Part shown: positions 11,804-27,888 of the stretch, in pieces
Numbering within the stretch: the first letter of the stretch is position 1
How the letters are laid out: every line of letters starts with the position of its first letter
Virus record (IMG/VR): IMGVR_UViG_3300020473_000046
Span: 1 to 47,396 of that record
Length of the DNA stretch: 47,396 nucleotides
Reading direction: 5' to 3' (one strand)
Source: a virus
Position numbers and translations under genes: made by a program
Notes under the pieces: model-generated
What the model saw: only the letters and a program-made list of their open reading frames with translations
What the model was told of the DNA's origin: nothing
Databases searched by the model: none

Positions 11804-12279
11804 TGGCACTTAGTATTGCAGAGGTCTTGGAAGATGTTGCAAAGGCCAAGACAAGAGAAGAAAAACGAGAAGTCCTAAAGAAAAATGAATCTTGGTCTTT
11901 GAGAGCACTTCTTCAACAAAATTTTCATCCAGACGCTAAATGGTTGATTCCACCTGGCGCCCCACCTTATAATGCAAATCAGAATTCTGCTGATACTTCG
12001 TTACTTTATGAAGCGAAGAAGTTAGAGTATTACACAAACGGACAGAAAAATATTCCTATGTTGAAGAGGGAGGCAATGTTTGTGAATGTATTGGAACGAT
12101 TGAGTCCAGATGAAGCGGAAATTCTCATTGCAATCAAGGACCAGAAGTTATCTTATAAGGGACTCACCTATAAACTTGTAAAAGACACATGGCCGGACTT
12201 ACTCCCAGAACAGGAAGAGAAATCAACTACTTCAGTTACGGAAGAGAAAGAACCAAAAGCAGAAGTCGAAAACGCATAA
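11803..12279 (+). CDS. DUF6433 family protein
   Basis: 158 residues from ATG 11803; AGGAG at 11791-11795 is correctly spaced for it, so I reject the in-frame GTG at 11800. The sequence follows the DUF6433 pattern of T4-like marine phages: SIAEVLEDVAKAKTREEK, then WSLRALLQQNF, PPGAPPYN, LLYEAKKLEYY, LKREAMFVNVLERLSPDEAEILIAIKDQKL and YKGLTYKLVKD. The function of the family is unknown. An acidic low-complexity tail (residues 134-158) contains the late-promoter candidate for the hydrolase gene in its last codons. Confidence 0.82.
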   Translation: MALSIAEVLEDVAKAKTREEKREVLKKNESWSLRALLQQNFHPDAKWLIPPGAPPYNANQNSADTSLLYEAKKLEYYTNGQKNIPMLKREAMFVNVLERLSPDEAEILIAIKDQKLSYKGLTYKLVKDTWPDLLPEQEEKSTTSVTEEKEPKAEVENA

Positions 12280-12282
12280 ATA
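12275..12282 (+). promoter_or_regulatory. late-type promoter candidate for the cell wall hydrolase
   Basis: CATAAATA matches the T4-type late promoter (TATAAATA; NATAAATA in marine relatives). It overlaps the end of DUF6433 and lies 75 bases before the hydrolase ATG. A lysis enzyme under late control makes functional sense. Single 8-base motif, so moderate confidence. Confidence 0.5.
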
Positions 12283-12356
12283 TAAGTACACTTTGGTTAA
12301 GATGGTTATATCAATTCAAATTCTTGATTGACTTAGAAACCGAACAAAGGAAACGC

Positions 12357-12959
12357 ATGATTAAAGCGGTAAGATACTGTCTTACTCTTTTAACTGCACT
12401 TTTGATTCTTTCAACTCCTACGAACAGTAAAGTAAGCGATTCTTTATTCATAATAGAACCAGCAACTTTATCACTCAAACCCGATTATTTTAGCAACATT
12501 ACTTACTCTAATGAAGAATTAGAGTGTCTTGCGCTAAACATCTACTTTGAGGCAGGAGTCGAAAGTACAGCAGGGAAGCTAGCGGTAGCAAATGTCACTA
12601 TCAATAGAAAAAATTCAAGTGACTACCCAAACACGATATGCAGTGTGGTAAAAGAAGGTAAACACTATCATGATAAAAAAGTAGATAAAAAATATCCACT
12701 TAGAGACAGATGTCAATTTTCATGGTACTGTGATGGGCTAGTAGACAAACCAAAAAAGGGAAGAACTTGGAATACTTCTCTTGAAGTTGCAGAAATTGCA
12801 CTCAAAAAACATTATGCTGATATTCTCATAGACATTACGGATGGTTCAACACACTATCACGCTAATTGGATGGAGAAATATCCCTCATGGGCATATACCA
12901 AGAAAAAGATGGCTACCATTGACAGACACATCTTTTATAAGTCAAAAAAATACCGATAA
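12357..12959 (+). CDS. secreted SleB-type cell wall hydrolase (Hydrolase_2)
   Basis: 200 residues from ATG 12357, chosen because AAAGGA (12346-12351) precedes it and the open frame further upstream runs through the DUF6433 gene. Residues 1-24 (MIKAVRYCLTLLTALLILST) are a signal peptide or signal-anchor. The catalytic domain matches the SleB/Hydrolase_2 family: ECLALNIYFE65AGVESTAGKLAVANVTINR, then CSVVKEG, CQFSWYCDG, AEIALKKHYADIL and THYHANWMEKYPSW. E65 in the YFEA motif corresponds to the family's catalytic glutamate. It would cut peptidoglycan glycan strands for lysis; the signal sequence implies export before holin action. Confidence 0.85.
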   Translation: MIKAVRYCLTLLTALLILSTPTNSKVSDSLFIIEPATLSLKPDYFSNITYSNEELECLALNIYFEAGVESTAGKLAVANVTINRKNSSDYPNTICSVVKEGKHYHDKKVDKKYPLRDRCQFSWYCDGLVDKPKKGRTWNTSLEVAEIALKKHYADILIDITDGSTHYHANWMEKYPSWAYTKKKMATIDRHIFYKSKKYR

Positions 12960-18579: not shown

Positions 18580-20262
18580 TCATCTCATATTAACTTTGTC
18601 TCTCCCCTCACCAACTAAGGCTGGACCTCTGGTCTGGGGAGCGGCAACGTTTGTCTGATTGATAATGGTAGGTTGTTGACTGTTATCAATTACAACTGGA
18701 GCAGCAGAACCTGTCATCCCACCCATTGTTCTATCCATTTGTAATCCATTGATCACTGCACCAGATTGAGGTAGGTAAGATGCAACAAAGTTATCAATTC
18801 TATCAGAAGATGGTCGGTCAAACACAATTTCACCAGAGTGAAGTTTATACAGACCTGTTTCTGATATTCTACCCCCTGTTTGTCTTGAACCTTTAATTAT
18901 TCCTGCTTTTCTTAATTCCAATTCTTGAATCTTTTCTGCATCTTCTTCTCGACCTTTACCTTCTCTACCAAAATAAACATTCTCACCACCCTCTGAACGT
19001 GATATTCTGTCTAGTGCTCCTTTGATTGCAGTTTCAATTTCTTCTAATTCTTTTTCTTGTGATTGTTCGGTAAGACCTGTAGCATCTAATGCTTTTCTTA
19101 AAAGACCACCCTCTGGAGCTATTGTTGCTAATATTGCATCTGTATCGATTGAAAAAATTTCACTAAAAAAGTTTTTGATTTTAGTTGTAAAGTTATCAAT
19201 ACTCTCTTTGAAGAAGTTCTTAATGTTTGTTCCAATATCACTAAAAAACTTACCGATATCATCACCTAGATTTTTCAGTGTTGTTTTTGGGTCTATGATT
19301 AAATCTAATAGAAAATTTGCAACACTTAAAATACCATCTATGACTTTTCCTATACCATCTCCGATCAAGGTTACTACAGACATTAATGTATTTTTACCAC
19401 CAGCATCTTCAAATGCATCTGCTAGAAGTGCAGTTATTTTATCGTATACTTGTCCAATTTTAGTCACAAAATCATCAAACTTTTTTTTAATACCATCAAA
19501 GTTTTTCATAAAACCCTCACCAAATGCATCTGAAATGTCTTTGACAAAATCAATGATACTTATAATGGTATCTTTGACTGCTGTGAATGTTGCAGTTTCA
19601 AATTTTTGTTTATCTGCTTCCGAAACTTGCATTGACTCTGGAACAAATGCATTGTAAATATCAACTGCTCCAGATACAATCTTTGAGAACACGTTTGCAA
19701 CACCTTTTGCTATATCTTCTTTCAATTTGTCAAACTCTGCATCTGTCAACATAAAAGATGCAACACCTACTCCTGCAAAGAGTGCTGCGATAGCACCTAA
19801 ACCTGTTACCAATGCAGCTGTACTTGTTAATGCAGCTCCTAGTGTACCCAAAAAAGCAAAAGGTTTGAGTAAAAAAGCACCAAACTTTAAAAAGAGTTTT
19901 CCAACAGAGCCAAGCGCAGAAAAAAGTCCTTTAATCATTTTGATAGGAAAACCAACAATACCAGACAACATTTTTTTGAGAAACCCACCTTTTTTTGAAT
20001 CTTCTCCACTATCACCAGAAGAACCATCACTTTCTATTGCGTTAATTAATTCTTCATGTTGTCTATCACTTTCTCTCTCTTCCTCATCTTGTGTTTCCTG
20101 TGAGGGTAATCTTTGAAGTGCCTCTACGATAGAATCTGTTTGAGTTTTAATACGCAAAGTTGCATTACCACTTTGTCGCCATACTCCTGAACCAGAGAAA
20201 GTTTGTTTTCTGACTAATGATGCGATACCATCCGCCATTTGTTGTTGAAGTGCATTTGCCAT
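18580..20262 (-). CDS. tail tape measure-like protein (gp29 counterpart)
   Basis: 560 residues (T4 gp29 is 590). A long, mostly helical protein with Ser/Asp-rich segment at 50-85, a hydrophobic stretch from about residue 90 to 180 (LGTLGAALTSTAALVTGLGAIAALFAGVGVASFML) and repeated Phe/Lys/Ile-rich helices, typical of tape measures. The C-terminus carries a conserved GLYKLHSGEIVFDRPSSDRIDNF segment and an Asn/Gln/Thr-rich end (VVIDNSQQPTIINQTNV) I know from this gene in marine T4-like phages. It would fix tail length inside the tube. The gp26/frameshift unit lies four bases upstream, as chaperone genes do before tape measures. Confidence 0.72.
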   Translation of the reverse strand: MANALQQQMADGIASLVRKQTFSGSGVWRQSGNATLRIKTQTDSIVEALQRLPSQETQDEEERESDRQHEELINAIESDGSSGDSGEDSKKGGFLKKMLSGIVGFPIKMIKGLFSALGSVGKLFLKFGAFLLKPFAFLGTLGAALTSTAALVTGLGAIAALFAGVGVASFMLTDAEFDKLKEDIAKGVANVFSKIVSGAVDIYNAFVPESMQVSEADKQKFETATFTAVKDTIISIIDFVKDISDAFGEGFMKNFDGIKKKFDDFVTKIGQVYDKITALLADAFEDAGGKNTLMSVVTLIGDGIGKVIDGILSVANFLLDLIIDPKTTLKNLGDDIGKFFSDIGTNIKNFFKESIDNFTTKIKNFFSEIFSIDTDAILATIAPEGGLLRKALDATGLTEQSQEKELEEIETAIKGALDRISRSEGGENVYFGREGKGREEDAEKIQELELRKAGIIKGSRQTGGRISETGLYKLHSGEIVFDRPSSDRIDNFVASYLPQSGAVINGLQMDRTMGGMTGSAAPVVIDNSQQPTIINQTNVAAPQTRGPALVGEGRDKVNMR

Positions 20263-20265
20263 GTC

Positions 20266-20454
20266 TTAACCGCTTTGTTGTTGCTTTATTCTTTCGTTTT
20301 CTTCTTTAACCCAATTGGTCAGAAGTGTTACGTATATTTCTCTTTCGTAGGGCATCATATCCTCTAGTTCGGTCAAACTCCACTTATGATGTTGAATCAT
20401 GGCAAAATTCGTGAGATAATAATTCTCAAGAGAGTTGTGACTCAGGCCTACCCG
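20266..20454 (-). CDS. gp51-like downstream frame, probable -1 frameshift extension of gp26
   Basis: This frame encodes 62 residues after the slippery site: RVGLSHNSLENYYLTNFAMIQHHKW and onward to LTNWVKEENERIKQQQSG. It is open only from just before the gp26 stop and has no start codon there; the first ATG (20398-20400) lacks a ribosome binding site and would remove the conserved-looking ENYYLTNF segment. The pattern FAMIQHHxxSLxELExMxPxERxIY, then EEN/ERI resembles the small gene after gp26 in marine T4-like phages, sometimes called gp51 (baseplate hub assembly). Ending four bases before the tape measure ATG, it is best read as the C-terminal part of a gp26 fusion of about 290 residues. Confidence 0.7.
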   Translation of the reverse strand, partial: RVGLSHNSLENYYLTNFAMIQHHKWSLTELEDMMPYEREIYVTLLTNWVKEENERIKQQQSG

Positions 20455-21140
20455 AAAAAAGAGTCAAGTCCTTGTAAAGTTGTTTCCTTTTCTTCTCCAC
20501 ACTTCTCACATTTGTAATTGATAGTGTGTTCTAATTTAGGCATAGTATCAAAAAACTCTTTGATTTTTGCAAATTGTTTTGTGTCCATGCTGTCTATGAA
20601 TTCGTCCAGTTCTTTTGTAGTAAAAGAATCACGTTCATGCGTTTCCTCTTCAGTAAAAATCATTTCAATGCAATCCTTAACGATTGCCATACCATCTTCT
20701 TCTGTAATACCAACTGTCTTTATAACAGGGTAAGACATCATCACACCTACTTCATCAGATATCATAATTTTTCGAGTATGTCCCTCTGATCTTGTTACCT
20801 CAATCTCATCCATGTTGATTGAAATTTGATTGATCCCACCGCATTCTGTGTCGGTGCATTTTAATCCAATCTCTGAAATCTCTCCTATTGACTTTGAACG
20901 TAGTTTGAGAAAGAGATATTCAATGTCAAATAATGGTAATCTTTCTACGTCTATTTTACCTTGAACACAATTTTTAAGTATTGTCTTGATTGCATTCATT
21001 AACGCTGTTTGACTTCCGTCTTCCATCGCTGTGAGTAAAACTTTTTCTTCCTTTACTAAAAATGGTCTAAACTTTATAACCTTATTGGTTGATGGTAAAA
21101 TCGCTTCATAAACTGGTGTATTCAGTTTTGGTAATGACAT
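20448..21140 (-). CDS. 26: baseplate hub assembly protein, gp26-like
   Basis: 230 residues (T4 gp26 is 208), of the T4 baseplate family I know as PF12322. N-terminal LPKLNTPVYEAILPSTNKVIKFRPFLVKEEKVLLTAME is its hallmark. Two Cys pairs, CTDTEC (about residues 110-115) and CEKC (about 215-218), suggest a zinc site closing the fold. Needed for assembly of the hub in T4. The last sense codons carry TTTTTTC, so a fraction of ribosomes may continue into the 62-residue downstream frame. Ribosome binding site AAGGAT. Expressed leftward between the tube-fold protein and the tape measure. Confidence 0.82.
   Translation of the reverse strand: MSLPKLNTPVYEAILPSTNKVIKFRPFLVKEEKVLLTAMEDGSQTALMNAIKTILKNCVQGKIDVERLPLFDIEYLFLKLRSKSIGEISEIGLKCTDTECGGINQISINMDEIEVTRSEGHTRKIMISDEVGVMMSYPVIKTVGITEEDGMAIVKDCIEMIFTEEETHERDSFTTKELDEFIDSMDTKQFAKIKEFFDTMPKLEHTINYKCEKCGEEKETTLQGLDSFFG
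20454..20460 (-). promoter_or_regulatory. T-TTT-TTC slippery heptamer in gp26
   Basis: On the minus strand the gp26 end reads TCT TTT TTC GGG TAG. The seven bases T TTT TTC fit the X-XXY-YYZ rule for -1 frameshifting. A one-base slip leads directly into the open 62-codon frame (next codon CGG) instead of the stop two codons later. Confidence 0.7.
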
Positions 21141-21160
21141 GATCTAATCCTTTCATATTA

Positions 21161-21742
21161 TTATGGTCCACTTGGACTTGTAAATGCTGGTTGTGATGAT
21201 GATGGTTTTATATCATCTGTTTCAAAATATGCGTATTGCATTTCAGCGTTTACACGTAATGTTGTATTTTGCGTTGAATGATTTAATTGAATTGATTGTA
21301 TACTCTTGGGATAAACCTCTCTGTAAGTTATAGTAAATGCCTTCGTCACTCCGTCTGGTTTAAGTGATGTGACATTGAGTGAGCAGTTTTTTGCATAAGT
21401 ATCATAATATGCAACATCAAATCCGTTTGTCGAATCTACAATCAAATTATTCCATTGGTCCAATATTCTTTTTTCTTTAAAATCACCAGTGCAAATGAAT
21501 GTTAGATTTAATGGATTGTAAGCTGGTGCATTGTATGCTATTTCTCTACGAATACCATATTCAAGATTCATTATAGATTGAACACTACGTCCTGCTATGT
21601 CAACTTGTTCGCACATGAAATCAAGTTGACGATCTGTAGGTCCAACTGGAATGCCATCGAATCTTACTTTAAACTTATTTGGAGATGCAAGACCAAAGGT
21701 GGCTAGTTTACCTGCAAATTCTGTGATTGTGAATCCTGTCAT
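21161..21742 (-). CDS. tail tube-fold protein (gp54 or gp19-like)
   Basis: 193 residues. The layout fits the phage tail-tube fold: NKFKVRFDGIP, MCEQVDIAGRSVQ, IRREIAYNAPAYNPLNLTFICTGDFKEKRILDQWNNLIV, VAYYDTYAKNCSLNV, FTITYREVYPKSIQSIQLNHS and a C-terminal LRVNAEMQYAYFE strand. Size lies near the major tube protein gp19 (163), below gp54 (320). The location beside hub and tape measure genes, away from any sheath gene, favours a baseplate tube-initiator (gp54-like) role. It starts one base inside the end of the upstream gene. Confidence 0.7.
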   Translation of the reverse strand: MTGFTITEFAGKLATFGLASPNKFKVRFDGIPVGPTDRQLDFMCEQVDIAGRSVQSIMNLEYGIRREIAYNAPAYNPLNLTFICTGDFKEKRILDQWNNLIVDSTNGFDVAYYDTYAKNCSLNVTSLKPDGVTKAFTITYREVYPKSIQSIQLNHSTQNTTLRVNAEMQYAYFETDDIKPSSSQPAFTSPSGP

Positions 21743-22335
21743 TATCCAAACTTTCTTTTACTATCAGACCAAACTGATGTTTTTGATGCTTTTCTAAAAC
21801 GTTCTAATGGAAGGAAGATCGCAATCTCTTGTTCGTTTTCCTCTATCGGAATCACTTTTCTCATGATCTGGTCAAATCGATATTTCTTGACAGTCGGTGC
21901 AACTTGCGGAATCTTTGAAATCTTCTTCCAGTTTATTATTCCTCTTCCAACTTTCGCATTTACTCTGTCTAACAAAATAGCACGAAACTTGGGTGGCAGA
22001 TAATGAAAGTTAAGACCAGTAAAAGTATCTTGATCCGCTCCAATCAACATAATCATTGGAAACATATCATAAAATGGTAACTCGTTTCTATACTTGGGGT
22101 TATAGTAATAACAATATATGTCACCCAAACTTGCTCTTCGTCTTAACACATTCGGATTAATCTTTTCTTCCGCTTCACGATAGAACTTAGCTGCATTTGT
22201 TGAGGTGAACTTATTTCTCAGTTCTCCTTTCAACCCTCTAATTTTGTCACGAAACCATTGTGCTGACCTTCGTGTTTCTTGTCCGATTTTACCAGTTCGG
22301 ATAGTATCGGTCAACTTATCCAATAAATCTGCCAT
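21742..22335 (-). CDS. conserved virion-assembly protein of unknown role
   Basis: 197 residues. N-terminal basic helices (RRSAQWFRDKIRGLKGELRNKF) are followed by a conserved-looking core: SLGDIYCYYYNPKYRNELPFYDMFPMIMLIGADQDTFTGLNFHYLPPKFRAILLDRV. I recognise this pattern from marine T4-like phages next to gp4 and gp53, where it is left as hypothetical. A C-terminal IAIFLPLERFRKASKTSVWSDS completes it. No enzymatic motif. Position between gp4 and the tube-fold gene supports a head-tail or baseplate assembly role. A late promoter candidate lies nine bases upstream of its ATG. Confidence 0.7.
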   Translation of the reverse strand: MADLLDKLTDTIRTGKIGQETRRSAQWFRDKIRGLKGELRNKFTSTNAAKFYREAEEKINPNVLRRRASLGDIYCYYYNPKYRNELPFYDMFPMIMLIGADQDTFTGLNFHYLPPKFRAILLDRVNAKVGRGIINWKKISKIPQVAPTVKKYRFDQIMRKVIPIEENEQEIAIFLPLERFRKASKTSVWSDSKRKFG

Positions 22336-22342
22336 AGTACAA

Positions 22343-22792
22343 TTATTTATCTGGGACTAACTGTTTTTCTGTGAGAATCTGAAAACTCCAACCCTTTTTC
22401 TCGCATACTTTGGTTGCAGCTTTCCACTTTGCTTCATTCACTAACCAAGTTTGAACTGACTTTATATATCTTCGTTTCTTCTTGAGTTCTAGGTTCTCAA
22501 CAACAAGTTTCTTTGGTGGTCGAGATTGTGTGAGTGGTTTGACTTCTATGAGAAACCAACCTTTTGGTGTTTGGATGAGAAAGTCGGGAAAGTAACGATG
22601 TTGTTTGTTGTCAATAGGTGAGATGTAAGGAATAACAACCTCTTCACTACTCCACTTATAACATTTATCGTTGGAATCACACCATTCCATGAATCTTCTT
22701 TCCATTAAACTACGATAAATAATATTAGTCGGATTTCCCAAATACTTGTTGGGATTCTTAATTTTATATTTACCTTTATATCGCTTTCTCAT
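22343..22792 (-). CDS. 4: head completion protein, gp4 (gp50)-like
   Basis: 149 residues, equal to T4 gp4 (150). Required to finish DNA-filled heads before tail joining. The sequence is very conserved in form: MRKRYKGKYKIKNPNKYLGNPTNIIYRSLMERRFMEWCD, WSSEEVVIPYISPIDNKQHRYFPDFLIQTPKGWFLIEVKP, and KAATKVCEKKGWSFQILTEKQL. The E-V-I-P-Y, then PDFLI and IEVK elements look like a PD-(D/E)XK nuclease-type fold (D, E-x-K). Its ATG shares the palindrome CATG (22790-22793) with the divergent gp48 gene. Confidence 0.9.
   Translation of the reverse strand: MRKRYKGKYKIKNPNKYLGNPTNIIYRSLMERRFMEWCDSNDKCYKWSSEEVVIPYISPIDNKQHRYFPDFLIQTPKGWFLIEVKPLTQSRPPKKLVVENLELKKKRRYIKSVQTWLVNEAKWKAATKVCEKKGWSFQILTEKQLVPDK
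22344..22351 (-). promoter_or_regulatory. late-type promoter candidate (minus strand)
   Basis: GATAAATA on the minus strand, overlapping the stop codon of gp4 and nine bases before the 21742-22335 gene start. This would give an almost leaderless transcript, so it could equally be coincidental. Confidence 0.35.
22714..22721 (+). promoter_or_regulatory. late-type promoter candidate for gp48
   Basis: GATAAATA on the plus strand, 69 bases before the gp48 ATG and inside the divergent gp4 gene. It has a mirror-image partner at 22851-22858 for the opposite strand. Confidence 0.5.
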
Positions 22793-23771
22793 GGCAGAGT
22801 ATTATCAATATCCAGAAACATTAAAATCAACAGAAGAAGCTGGTCAACACTATTTATTGATTGATTCTTATGAGTCAAAAAATGCAATAACCACTGGAAA
22901 TAAAATTTCTTCTATTGCATTATACGTTCCACCTAATTCATTGCAATACTCACATGGTGCTAATTATGAGGGATTGGATCAAGGAGCATTGTTTGGTGCA
23001 GCTGGAGCAAAAGTAAGAGAAGTTGTTGAAGGAGGTGGTGGAATTAAAGGAATTGTCGCTGCAGCAATCGGTGGTGGAAGTCAGGAGGCTGCAAGAGCGA
23101 GAGGTATTGTGTCAGCGGTCAGTATTGCAAATAAACTTCCAGGCGTGGGAGGAAATGCTTCTGCTGTTTTAAGTGCTACAGCTGGACTTGCAGTAAACAA
23201 CCATATGGCACTTGTTTATCGAGGACCAAACTCGTTTCGATCTCATACATTCAATTTTTCATTCTTTCCAAAAAATTCAAGAGAGTCAGATGCAGTCCAA
23301 AATATTATAAAGGACTTCAAGAATGGTATGTTGCCAAGGTATACTGGTGCAGGAAAATCAAATGGAAGGTTGTCATCACCATTCTTTAAAATGCCTCGAC
23401 ACTATAGGTTGGAAATTTTAAATTTGACTACTGGTCCAAACTCTTACTTAAATGATGAGATGTTTCCAAGAAACAGTAAAGGAGACAAAATCAATCATGT
23501 TATAACAAACATGACTGTCAATCATGACCCAAATGGAGTCGTATCATTTCATTCAAATGGCGCTCCAGTTCAAACTAATCTATCACTTACGTTTCAAGAA
23601 ACAGAGTTTATCACAAGTAAAGATGCTGTTGATGATAGATATGAAAGTGCGATAAGTCAAAACATAACAAGACAAGCACAAACACTTAGTTTACAAGAAC
23701 AAGCGGATGCATTTGCTCCACAAAGTGCAGCACAAGCGCTTGAAAGAGTAAGACAGGGTAGAGGTTTTTAA
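22791..23771 (+). CDS. 48: baseplate tail-tube cap, gp48-like
   Basis: 326 residues from ATG 22791 (MAEYYQYPETL); an in-frame upstream start at 22746 would add 15 residues that only reflect antisense gp4. T4 gp48 is 364. It caps the central hub and starts tube polymerisation. Features: SIALYVPPNSLQYSHGANYEG, a Gly/Ala-rich insert (residues 75-140, EGGGGIKGIVAAAIGGGSQEA and similar) and the tube-like domain with FNFSFFPKNSRESDAVQNIIKDFKNGMLPRY, FKMPRHYRLEIL and an NMTVNHDPNGVVSFHSNGAPVQTNLSLTFQETEFI strand pair. No Shine-Dalgarno is visible. Confidence 0.85.
   Translation: MAEYYQYPETLKSTEEAGQHYLLIDSYESKNAITTGNKISSIALYVPPNSLQYSHGANYEGLDQGALFGAAGAKVREVVEGGGGIKGIVAAAIGGGSQEAARARGIVSAVSIANKLPGVGGNASAVLSATAGLAVNNHMALVYRGPNSFRSHTFNFSFFPKNSRESDAVQNIIKDFKNGMLPRYTGAGKSNGRLSSPFFKMPRHYRLEILNLTTGPNSYLNDEMFPRNSKGDKINHVITNMTVNHDPNGVVSFHSNGAPVQTNLSLTFQETEFITSKDAVDDRYESAISQNITRQAQTLSLQEQADAFAPQSAAQALERVRQGRGF
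22851..22858 (-). promoter_or_regulatory. late-type promoter candidate for gp4 (minus strand)
   Basis: AATAAATA on the minus strand, 58 bases upstream of the gp4 ATG, inside gp48. With 22714-22721 on the other strand it makes a symmetric divergent pair around the shared start codons. Confidence 0.45.
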
Positions 23772-24349
23772 TGGCAAATTATTTTAGAAACATACCAAAC
23801 GTTCAATATGACATAAACGGAACTGAACCAAATCAGTTTACGACTGTTACGAACATAATGAAACGTGTTCGTTTCAAACCTTCTGTCATAGAGAACATCA
23901 CTGATTATTATCCTTACTATGTCAAAGAAGGTGAACGACCAGACATTGTGTCTTTTCAAAAATACGGAACAGTTGCGTATGCGTATTTGATTCTTCTCTT
24001 GAATAATATTGTTGATCCTTTGTTTGACTGGCCTCTTCCGTCAAGACAGTTTGAAAATTACATCATCGAACAATATGGTAGTATTGCAACCGCACAGGCG
24101 ACAAATAAGTATTACTATCAGATAGTTCGTGCAGAGGTTGCAAGGACAGGAACAAGTGAAAGAGTGCCAGAGTATAAAATCATAGTAGATCAAACAACTT
24201 ACAATTCACTTGATGCTTCTGTGAGGTCTGCACAAAACGTTTACGACTATGAGGTTGAATTGAATGACAACAAAAGAAATATCAATATCATAAATCCAGA
24301 TTTCATACAAGACATAGATTATGAAGTAAAGAAAACACTTTTATCATAA
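23771..24349 (+). CDS. 53: baseplate wedge subunit, gp53-like
   Basis: 192 residues (T4 gp53 is 196). gp53 joins neighbouring wedges to each other and to the hub. Pattern fits: MANYFRNIPNVQYDINGT, MKRVRFKPSVIENITDYYPYYVKEGERPDIVSFQKYGTVAYAYLILLLNNIVDPLFDWPL, then FENYIIEQYGSIATAQ and an acidic C-terminus with INIINPDFIQDI. The R-PD-x-(V/I)-(S/A) ... W element at about residues 55-95 is the LysM-like core of the family. Its ATG overlaps the gp48 stop by one base. Confidence 0.88.
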   Translation: MANYFRNIPNVQYDINGTEPNQFTTVTNIMKRVRFKPSVIENITDYYPYYVKEGERPDIVSFQKYGTVAYAYLILLLNNIVDPLFDWPLPSRQFENYIIEQYGSIATAQATNKYYYQIVRAEVARTGTSERVPEYKIIVDQTTYNSLDASVRSAQNVYDYEVELNDNKRNINIINPDFIQDIDYEVKKTLLS

Positions 24350-24359
24350 TTGATTGATC

Positions 24360-25991
24360 ATGGCAGAAACCAACGTTGATTCCAAAGCAAAAAGTCCAGA
24401 TTATGCAGCTCCTAATTTTGATGGAGATTTTCGTCTTCTTGAATTATCTCTTCATTCACCAAATAATGTTGATGTAGTGCAACTTAACTCTTCATCTGTA
24501 TTTCAACAGATGGAGATTTTTGAGGACTTATTTTCAAACGTTCTACGTGGAACTTTGACAATTCTTGATTCTCAAGGACTTGCAGAGTTGTTTCCGTTTA
24601 TTGGCGAGGAAACACTTATCATGACGTTCTTCACTCCAGGCGGTGAAGGGACATCCCTTGAACAAAACAGAACATCACAAACTAGTATCGAGGAAACATC
24701 TCGACAACGTTTCAAGGTTTATGACATTGTAGAAGCTGGTACAAAGGAACGAACAAAAATCTATAAACTATTTTTTGTAAGTGAAGAGTATGTTTTCAAC
24801 ATGAAGAAGAAAGTCAGTAAAGGATATAAGGGTAGAGAATATTCCTTCATCGTTGAAGATTTGATGAAAAAGATTAATGAAAACGTCAAAGAGGATTTTC
24901 GTAAAAAGGTTTTCATAGAAAAAACTTTGTCAATGCAAAATGTGATTGTACCAAACTGGACTCCATTTCAAGCAATTAACTTTTGCGCTTCACGTTCTTT
25001 ATCATCAGACATTGAACCTACTGAACAAAAAGATACAACTGCACCGCCTCCACCAAGACCAGTTGGTTCTTTGTTTGTCTTCTATGAAAAATTAGGAGCA
25101 GGATTTTTCTACGAATCCATAGAAAGTTTGATTGTCAAACAGAAAATGGCTGGTGACTTACCACTTTATCAATATGCACCAAAACTCGCAGAGAGTAAAA
25201 GTGGAGAACTAGCAGTAGGGTTTTTTCACGTAGAACAATTTGAGGTAGACACATCTTTTAAGACACTTGAGAACTTGGGTTATGGTTTGTTCGCTTCAAA
25301 ATTGATTGCATATGATCCACTTCGCATGAAATATGATACTATCAAATATGATTATTATCAAAAGAAAAGTAATCAATCAATAAAGGTTGACGATGATACT
25401 GGTGTGGAAGAAATAAAAGAAGAACCAGAAAATTTGACAGATGATTCTAATAGGGTGTTTGGTGACTTCATAGCAACAGATATAAATCCTATAGACAAAA
25501 AACCTAATAAGTTAATAAGTTCAGAATCAGAATTTTTAGGTTCAAACGACACAAGTATAAAGTTATCAACCACTACTAAAAATCATGGTGAGTTGTTTTT
25601 ACCATCTGCAAATGGTTCTTCAATAGGTGTTAAGAGTGACACGTTTAAAGATCCTGAATCAAAACAAAACAATGTTGAAAACTGGTTATTACAAAGAGAA
25701 GCTCAGGTTCAAGAGTTTGGTAGTATAGTTGTTAAATTTACTGTGCCTGGTAATACGTCAAAACACGTAGGGGATTTAATTCGTTTTGAAATGCCGACAA
25801 GTATTCCAGAAGACGACCCAAATATTAATTCATTAGAAATAGGACATCAACTTTACAGTGGCAATTACTTGATATCAAAAATAAGACACGTTATTACAGT
25901 TGATAGTTATGATATGGATATGGAGATTATTAAGAATTCATTTGCAAAAAGAATCGGTGGACAGATAACAGAGGTTCAAAATGCAAACTGA
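24360..25991 (+). CDS. baseplate hub protein, gp27-like
   Basis: 543 residues from ATG 24360 (MAETNVDSKAK); an in-frame TTG at 24354 is less likely. The core LLELSLHSPNNVDVVQLNSSSVFQQMEIFEDLFSNVLRGTLTILDSQGLAELFPFIGEETLIMTFFTP is typical of the hub protein directly upstream of gp5 in marine T4-like phages. T4 gp27 has 391 residues, so this version carries insertions (Lys/Asp/Asn-rich linkers at about 340-430). It ends with LIRFEMPTSI, then YLISKIRHVITVDSYDMDMEIIKNSF, as seen in VgrG/gp27-like proteins. It overlaps gp5 by 11 bases. Confidence 0.72.
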   Translation: MAETNVDSKAKSPDYAAPNFDGDFRLLELSLHSPNNVDVVQLNSSSVFQQMEIFEDLFSNVLRGTLTILDSQGLAELFPFIGEETLIMTFFTPGGEGTSLEQNRTSQTSIEETSRQRFKVYDIVEAGTKERTKIYKLFFVSEEYVFNMKKKVSKGYKGREYSFIVEDLMKKINENVKEDFRKKVFIEKTLSMQNVIVPNWTPFQAINFCASRSLSSDIEPTEQKDTTAPPPPRPVGSLFVFYEKLGAGFFYESIESLIVKQKMAGDLPLYQYAPKLAESKSGELAVGFFHVEQFEVDTSFKTLENLGYGLFASKLIAYDPLRMKYDTIKYDYYQKKSNQSIKVDDDTGVEEIKEEPENLTDDSNRVFGDFIATDINPIDKKPNKLISSESEFLGSNDTSIKLSTTTKNHGELFLPSANGSSIGVKSDTFKDPESKQNNVENWLLQREAQVQEFGSIVVKFTVPGNTSKHVGDLIRFEMPTSIPEDDPNINSLEIGHQLYSGNYLISKIRHVITVDSYDMDMEIIKNSFAKRIGGQITEVQNAN

Positions 25992-27888
25992 ATATTTTCA
26001 AGGTAAAGACGGATATATTTGGTGGCATGGAGTCGTAGAGGACCGCAAAGATCCACTCTTTCTTGGTCGTTGTCGTGTTCGTATTTTAGGGTGGCACACC
26101 GAAAACAAATCAGAATTACCAACAAGTATGTTACCATGGGCTCAGGTTTTGATGCCTATCACTTCTGCAAGTCAAACTGGTGTAGGTCATGCACCAGTTG
26201 GACCTGTGGAGGGAACGTGGGTCATGGGGTTTTATCGTGATGGAGAACTCGCACAAGAACCTGTGATGATTGGGACACTTCCAGGCATTCCAGAAAGATT
26301 TGCAAGACAAAATACTGGTTTCTATGATTCCAGATTAGACACACCAAGTGTAAACAAAAATGCTGTTACCACATCTGGTGATGCTAAAATAACAGGGACC
26401 AAACTTAATTTACAATCATTTCCTTATCCACCAAAATCAGTTGAATACAAGGCAGGACAGGAAGCGATTGTCACTCCCTACACTCATGATGAACGTATTG
26501 CACTTCAATCTAAATCTCTGTATCCAAGAGAAGTCAATAGACCAACGACTCCAATTTATGCAAGAGGTAAAGAAGATTCAACGACAAAAGTTATTGAAGG
26601 AACTGGAACCACTAATAAAACGGATACTAAATCAGTTTCTTCTGGTGTGTCTTCAATCATTGCAAATAAAAATCGAAATTTGTTGTCTCAAACATTGACG
26701 ATTTCATTTACACCAAATGAAGTAATAACTAAAACTACGATAAACAATGCAAAATATTTCGATGATACTGATTCATTTTCAGCGACAAATGACATTAAGG
26801 ATATAAATCAACCACCTTCTGCATATGATGCTGAATACCCATTTAATCATGTTTATGAATCAGAGAGTGGACATCTTTTAGAGGTTGATGATACTCCTTC
26901 CAAAGAGAGATTGCATTGGTATCATCGTTCTGGTTCTTTTACTGAATTTTCACCAGCTGGAAATCGTATAGACAGAACAGTAAGTCATCGTTACAACATG
27001 ACCACTGGAAATCAAGAAACAATTATTCAAGGTGATGAAATTAAAGGTGTTGCACAAGATGGATTTTTAGATGTTGGTGGTAAATTGACCATGGCTTCTG
27101 GTAAAGACATGAAGTTGATTTCTGAGTCAGGAAATGTTATTGTGGATGCACCTACTTTGAATACCATTATATCTGGAAAAAATGTTCTCGTTGCTGCAAC
27201 TGATACACTTGTTTTAAAAGGTGGAACTAAAGTTATTCGTGATGATGACTCTGCTGTTGATGTAGTAAAGGGTGATTATCAAATGCAAGCACAAGGAGGA
27301 TATGAAGTAAATTCTGGTAAAATATCATTGGGTTCTTTGGGTGCAACAAGTATTTCTTCTTTTGGTCCTTTGACTCAAGTGGTCACTGGAAATTCTGAAG
27401 AAACAATTGCGAACTCTGACATCATTTTTGGAAACTTAAATGCAAAGTTAATTAAGGCATTATTAGGTAAAATAGTTTTAGAATGTACGGAACCATTTGC
27501 TACAGGTGGTATAGATTTAAATATGGGTCCATTTGGCACAATTGCATCTATTAAAATGTTACCAGGCGGATTAATAACAGTGACTTCATCCCTTGGAACT
27601 GTAAATGTTACTGGAACATCGGGAGTATCTATGACATCCGCTGGTCCTGCATCTGTAGTCGGAACAGCTGCAACATCAGTAGGATCAAGTGGAACTGCTT
27701 TGACATCGGTAAACGGAGCATTTATCACAGTCGGTGGTTCAAGTTCTCCTGCATTACTTGCAAAAGATTTTTTAAAACTATTCGCAGAACATAATCATCC
27801 AAGTTCAGTTGGACCAACTGGACCATTATCTCCACAATTTGCGAGTAAATTAATTCAAACAATGTCAAAGAAAGTATTTTTATCATAG
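25981..27888 (+). CDS. 5: baseplate central spike, gp5/VgrG-like, without lysozyme domain
   Basis: 635 residues. The N-terminal OB-fold domain is clear: GKDGYIWWHGVVEDRKDPLFLGRCRVRILGWHTENKSELPTSMLPWAQVLMPITSASQTGVGHAPVGPVEGTWVMGFYRDGELAQEPVMIGTLPG (about residues 9-105). The centre (residues 280-345) has YPFNHVYESESGHLLEVDD, then ERLHWYHRSGSFTEFSPAGNR, the VgrG-like entry to a needle, followed by repetitive beta-helix strands (KLTMASGKDMKLISESGNVIVDA). T4 gp5 has a lysozyme domain between the two; I see no lysozyme catalytic pattern here. It would pierce the outer membrane. Confidence 0.85.
   Translation: MQTEYFQGKDGYIWWHGVVEDRKDPLFLGRCRVRILGWHTENKSELPTSMLPWAQVLMPITSASQTGVGHAPVGPVEGTWVMGFYRDGELAQEPVMIGTLPGIPERFARQNTGFYDSRLDTPSVNKNAVTTSGDAKITGTKLNLQSFPYPPKSVEYKAGQEAIVTPYTHDERIALQSKSLYPREVNRPTTPIYARGKEDSTTKVIEGTGTTNKTDTKSVSSGVSSIIANKNRNLLSQTLTISFTPNEVITKTTINNAKYFDDTDSFSATNDIKDINQPPSAYDAEYPFNHVYESESGHLLEVDDTPSKERLHWYHRSGSFTEFSPAGNRIDRTVSHRYNMTTGNQETIIQGDEIKGVAQDGFLDVGGKLTMASGKDMKLISESGNVIVDAPTLNTIISGKNVLVAATDTLVLKGGTKVIRDDDSAVDVVKGDYQMQAQGGYEVNSGKISLGSLGATSISSFGPLTQVVTGNSEETIANSDIIFGNLNAKLIKALLGKIVLECTEPFATGGIDLNMGPFGTIASIKMLPGGLITVTSSLGTVNVTGTSGVSMTSAGPASVVGTAATSVGSSGTALTSVNGAFITVGGSSSPALLAKDFLKLFAEHNHPSSVGPTGPLSPQFASKLIQTMSKKVFLS

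Follow-up and report, generated by a model that had tools for sequence, protein, structure and literature searches.

Does the small gp51-like reading frame that directly follows gene 26 in many marine T4-like phages constitute a gene of its own, or is it the end of a longer gp26 that is reached by a ribosomal frameshift? The list of hub assembly chaperones of phage T4 includes gp26 and gp51, the latter being required for assembly and absent from the particle (PMC3004832), and a 2010 comparison called the gp51 of cyanophages truncated and that of Aeh1 missing (PMC3037559). We addressed the question in a 47,396-base linear IMG/VR virus record, hereafter the window (the whole stretch of DNA that was analysed), which originates from an uncultured T4-like phage. 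A sequence-only reading had proposed that a -1 frameshift joins gp26 to a gp51-like extension, the two forming a tail assembly chaperone (TAC) pair ahead of the tape measure gene. The heptamer conservation, -1-frame coding, homology and gene order established here support this proposal. It is very probable, judging from these comparisons, that gp26 is the short form (TAC-N) and that a minority of ribosomes slips by -1 on the heptamer T-TTT-TTC to yield a long form (TAC-NC).

Gene order and protein families

On the minus strand of the window, the genes follow each other in the order tail tube, gp26, -1 extension and tape measure (Table 1), such that gp26 and the extension lie where TAC-N/TAC-NC genes are found, after the tail tube gene and before that of the tape measure. 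Both parts match profiles of the T4 gp26/gp51 baseplate hub chaperone family (PF12322, PHROG 150/634). The extension, a member of the gp51 family, additionally matches the C-terminal part of phrog_150 as well as phrog_23772, from which it follows that some database members already fuse it to a gp26-like part. An AlphaFold2 model of gp26 (pLDDT 81.7) had no significant Foldseek match in the PDB, the solved TAC-N of HK97 (gp13, 2ob9) appearing below significance (E 4.1, prob 0.16, TM 0.42 of target), and its matches among viral models were other gp26-family proteins. A megablast search of positions 18580-26000 against isolate phages returned no match.

Table 1. Coordinates of the tail genes, the predicted slip site and the candidate elements in the window
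Feature	Positions	Strand	Evidence and remarks
Tail tube protein	21161-21742	-	Adjoins gp26 upstream; phrog_45 5.9e-24, PF23849 3.2e-09
Gene 26, predicted short form (TAC-N), 230 aa	20448-21140	-	PF12322 9.1e-65, phrog_150 8.9e-69
Candidate SD-like element AAGGA (weak)	20469-20473	-	8 nt ahead of the heptamer
Slippery heptamer T-TTT-TTC, gp26 frame	20454-20460	-	Sequence; conserved in relatives
gp26 stop codon TAG	20448-20450	-	One codon past the heptamer; spacing alike in nearly all relatives
Candidate hairpin GAGT-CACA-ACTC (weak)	20432-20443	-	About 10 nt past the heptamer; 74% of cells paired, mixed controls
-1 extension (predicted TAC-C; 'gp51' in cyanophage annotation), 62 codons + stop	20266-20454	-	phrog_634 1.9e-29, -1 coding signature
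Predicted long form (TAC-NC), ~291 aa	20266-21140	-	Co-linear with T4 gp51
Tape measure protein	18580-20262	-	Next gene downstream; phrog_1272 4.2e-14 and several other tape-measure families

A slippery heptamer at the end of gene 26

The 3' end of gene 26 reads TCT (20462-20460) TTT TTC GGG TAG (20450-20448), so that T-TTT-TTC (20460-20454) stands in the register that a tandem -1 slip requires. The sequence-only reading had these letters and coordinates right, as it had the 62 open codons of the -1 frame (20454-20269). The frame closes with a stop codon at 20268-20266, and three bases, GAC, separate it from the tape-measure ATG at 20262 where four had been counted. The predicted long form would thus consist of gp26 through Phe-Phe, followed by RVGLSH... 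in the -1 frame. The extension had also been said to have no usable start. An in-frame ATG, of the type used by cyanophage annotators, does exist at 20400 and would leave 44 codons, but the conservation described below puts the start of translation in the -1 frame further upstream.

In the open reading frames of the window of at least 100 aa, 75 in-frame slippery heptamers were counted, two of them within 30 nt of a stop codon, and only the one in gp26 opens a long -1 frame (62 versus 7 codons). The other, AAAAAAA, belongs to a 256-aa reading frame on the plus strand (12189-12959), 13 nt ahead of its stop codon, and a -1 slip there would meet a stop after 7 codons. Because an open run of 62 codons is not rare by itself, occurring in 17% of random placements, the case for the slip site rests on its conservation.

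Conservation of the heptamer in relatives

With the extension as query, IMG/VR yielded 393 relatives, in which it is up to ~98% identical, and the 80 that were kept formed, together with 3 isolate cyanophages and the window, a first set of 84 loci. A further scan, from phage syn9, gave together with two Vibrio phages a second set of 58 unique junctions. TTTTTTC or a variant, TTTTTTA, stands in the gp26 frame ahead of the gp26 stop in 82 of the 84 loci, and TTTTTTC in all 58 junctions of the second set, the gp26 stop being at a constant distance in each of these 58; since the loci are related, these counts do not represent independent events. The slippery site was therefore found where the sequence-only reading had advised to look for it, at the same place in gp26 homologues. 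What that reading had named as contrary evidence, homologues combining a good start codon and ribosome binding site with the loss of the heptamer, was not encountered in T4-like phages of the marine or the Vibrio/Aeromonas lineages. Both exceptions in the first set (L017 and L025) read G-TTT-TTC, which re-pairs more weakly in the P site and counts against a slip there. This sequence is similar to GTTTTT, the motif that chaperone genes of Vandenendeviridae are reported to carry (PMC12846349).

The codon ahead of Phe-Phe is AGT, TCT, GCT or GAT in the second set and always ends in T, while the residue at this place varies among relatives between Ser, Ala, Asp, Thr and Asn. A constant base combined with a changing residue is what a slip site would demand, and not what protein coding would. 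In gp26 codon usage, TTT and TTC account for 71% and 29% of Phe, TCT and AGT for 34% and 20% of Ser, and about half of the Ser codons end in T; because of this different usage, the fixed TTT-TTC and the fixed preceding T cannot be attributed to codon bias. The same conservation bears on a trivial explanation, a sequencing or assembly error or a decaying gene: single-base frame breaks commonly arise in T runs, yet ~80 loci, the 58 unique junctions of the second set and the isolate genomes sequenced by several laboratories all share one frame relation, by which this explanation is refuted and its probability reduced to practically nil.

Translation of the extension in the -1 frame

In the stretch from the gp26 stop to the first conserved ATG, comparison of nearest neighbours gave 60, 42 and 139 substitutions at the first, second and third codon position of the -1 frame, and 106 synonymous versus 35 non-synonymous changes among codons with a single change. 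This excess at the third position, before any conserved start, implies that ribosomes are already in the -1 frame there. It can be set against the alternative that gp51 is a separate small gene translated from a start of its own, either the ATG at 20400 or a weak one close to the stop of gp26. Such a gene is annotated in S-SM1, Syn1, syn9, Sf-FP1 and others, and the ATG is indeed present in frame, but the heptamer, which lies upstream of that ATG, is where protein-level conservation and third-position bias set in, no start codon conserved between heptamer and ATG was found in the relatives, and the invariant heptamer would lack a reason. On these sequence comparisons we consider a separate gp51 gene very unlikely. 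In S-WAM1, VH7D, AsFcp_2 and Aeh1, gp51 is not annotated at the 3' end of gp26, and a joined coding sequence for gp26/gp51 was absent from all isolate records examined.

The same long protein could also arise if RNA polymerase slipped on the T run and inserted a base in some of the transcripts. The run comprises six T, or seven in Sinorhizobium phage phiM7 and Pseudomonas phage pf16, which read T-TTT-TTT at the junction. Six T is however a short run for transcriptional slippage, and the site keeps the ribosomal X-XXY-YYZ register and ends in C, with TTTTTTA as one variant, which makes slippage of the polymerase even less probable than a separate gene.

Relation to T4 genes 26 and 51

In T4, genes 26 and 51 lie on opposite strands. 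Residues 1-201 of T4 gp51 match the gp26 domain (PF12322 3.9e-52) and its C-terminal end matches the extension family (phrog_634 1.2e-23). A profile of 44 predicted long forms from marine and related phages aligns to T4 gp51 right through the junction (15-243), whereas T4 gp26 aligns to this profile only up to Phe-Phe. T4 gp51 being a full-length gp26 paralogue aligned across the junction, T4 thus encodes the short and the long form as two genes. The T4 proteins are accordingly homologous to those of the window, gp26 corresponding to the short and gp51 to the long form; they differ in that T4 has two paralogous genes that lack the heptamer, and the window one gene with a predicted frameshift. 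The end of T4 gene 26, GAG TTC TTT GAG TTA CTA TAA, has kept the Phe pair and lost the slippery codon order. Reading of the extension by a -1 frameshift from gp26 would explain why gp51 looked truncated in cyanophages and missing in Aeh1, which carries both the -1 frame and the heptamer.

Candidate stimulatory elements

A strong stimulatory structure is absent at this junction. The 50 nt past the heptamer have a mean folding energy of -8.0 versus -5.5 kcal/mol for synonymous shuffles (Wilcoxon 1e-5, the sequences being related), but the downstream 50 nt of the window itself fold no better than dinucleotide shuffles, nor did 81 nt of the window folded against such shuffles give a signal (z -0.09), and RNAalifold found no consensus structure in the 64 nt past the heptamer of 47 sequences. 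The candidate hairpin downstream is small and the evidence for it weak, as covariation counts are mixed and one slid control scores higher. A CTTTC/GAAAG stem in one relative (L072), considered as a compensatory change, was rejected because its register differs from that of the GAGT/ACTC stem. The SD-like element upstream gives a signal for the group (p ~0.01 versus synonymous shuffles) and is not significant for the window alone. We regard it as a doubtful, rather speculative idea that strict stop spacing, downstream hairpin and upstream SD-like element together might form a composite stop-proximal signal, specific to T4-like phages, that sets the chaperone ratio, and that T4 gene 26, having lost it through synonymous changes, would record a switch from recoding to gene duplication.

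Predicted mechanism and comparison with known systems

We infer the slipping, the slip rate and the chaperone action as follows. On the heptamer, the P-site tRNA-Phe would move from TTT onto TTT and its A-site counterpart from TTC onto TTT, upon which the slipped ribosomes would bypass the gp26 stop and append the 62 residues of TAC-C, giving a TAC-NC of ~291 aa. Phage lambda likewise encodes a short G and a frameshifted long GT form before the tape measure gene, and the window shares with it this gene order and the two predicted forms; the slippery site of lambda is GGGAAAG, unlike the T-TTT-TTC found here. The analogy with G/GT suggests that the tape measure protein would be coated by the short form and tail-tube subunits recruited through the C part of the long one, and that the slip rate would set the ratio of short to long form and thereby control tail assembly.

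The abstract of a 2022 study by Vladimirov, Gautam and Davidson is said to name genes 26 and 51 and to describe frameshifting as conserved in several T4-like groups. In the passages of PMC10885494 and PMC12846349 that cite it (Virology 566:9-15, doi 10.1016/j.virol.2021.11.003), this study is credited with the identification of the T4-like tail assembly chaperones, with the poly-T sites at which the TAC-N genes of such phages undergo a -1 slip (PMC12846349), and with the finding that some T4-like phages have two genes instead, a short one and a long, fused one (PMC10885494). The novelty that the sequence-only reading had implied for gp26/gp51 as a TAC pair is, as far as these passages go, lost to that work, although the pair is still not annotated in this way in the isolate records examined. 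The window, which shares with the chaperones described there the protein family and the short and long forms, adds a further, uncultivated member, and its frameshifted gp26/gp51 is a solid new example of a mechanism that is already published. A related case is the TAC locus of Vandenendeviridae and Andersonviridae, another phage family, in which a conserved -1 T-run slip also precedes the tape measure gene and the downstream reading frame is misannotated as a separate gene; the slip site reported as invariant in Vandenendeviridae is GTTTTT, compared to TTTTTTC here (PMC12846349).

The present comparison allows the annotation to be corrected in hundreds of marine T4-like genomes, in which gp51 appears as a tiny gene of its own, is missed, or was called truncated or absent (PMC3037559). 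Moreover, it provides a large comparative set for one highly conserved phage recoding site and points to two routes, recoding and gene duplication, towards one chaperone pair.

Junction variants in isolate phages

T-TTT-TTC is present at the junction in the Vibrio phages VH7D, D480 and KVP40, the Aeromonas phages AsFcp_2 and Aeh1, Pseudomonas phage Milchi, Synechococcus phage MA10, syn9 and Syn1. Rhizobium phage RHph_I1_9 (L089) has T-TTT-TTG plus a TGATG stop-start overlap near 1483-1500, which could start the extension by itself; this phage possibly stands midway between a frameshifted and a separate gene. In Ackermannviridae and relatives (L097, L100-L120), a gp51-like -1 frame directly follows gp26 and the X-XXY-YYZ heptamer is lacking. 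Their junction reads GA(A/G) ATT TTC ATT TAA TTTTTGAA in L103-L116 and L120. A TAATG stop-start overlap, or an ATG at the junction, is present in L117-L119 and in two Vibrio phages (L100, L101); the remaining loci of this group have TAATT, so that their extension would need either to start at ATT or to be reached through a slip site that has escaped recognition. Campylobacter phage CPt10 (L091), finally, fuses the gp26-like and gp51-like parts in a single open reading frame (1356-2090).
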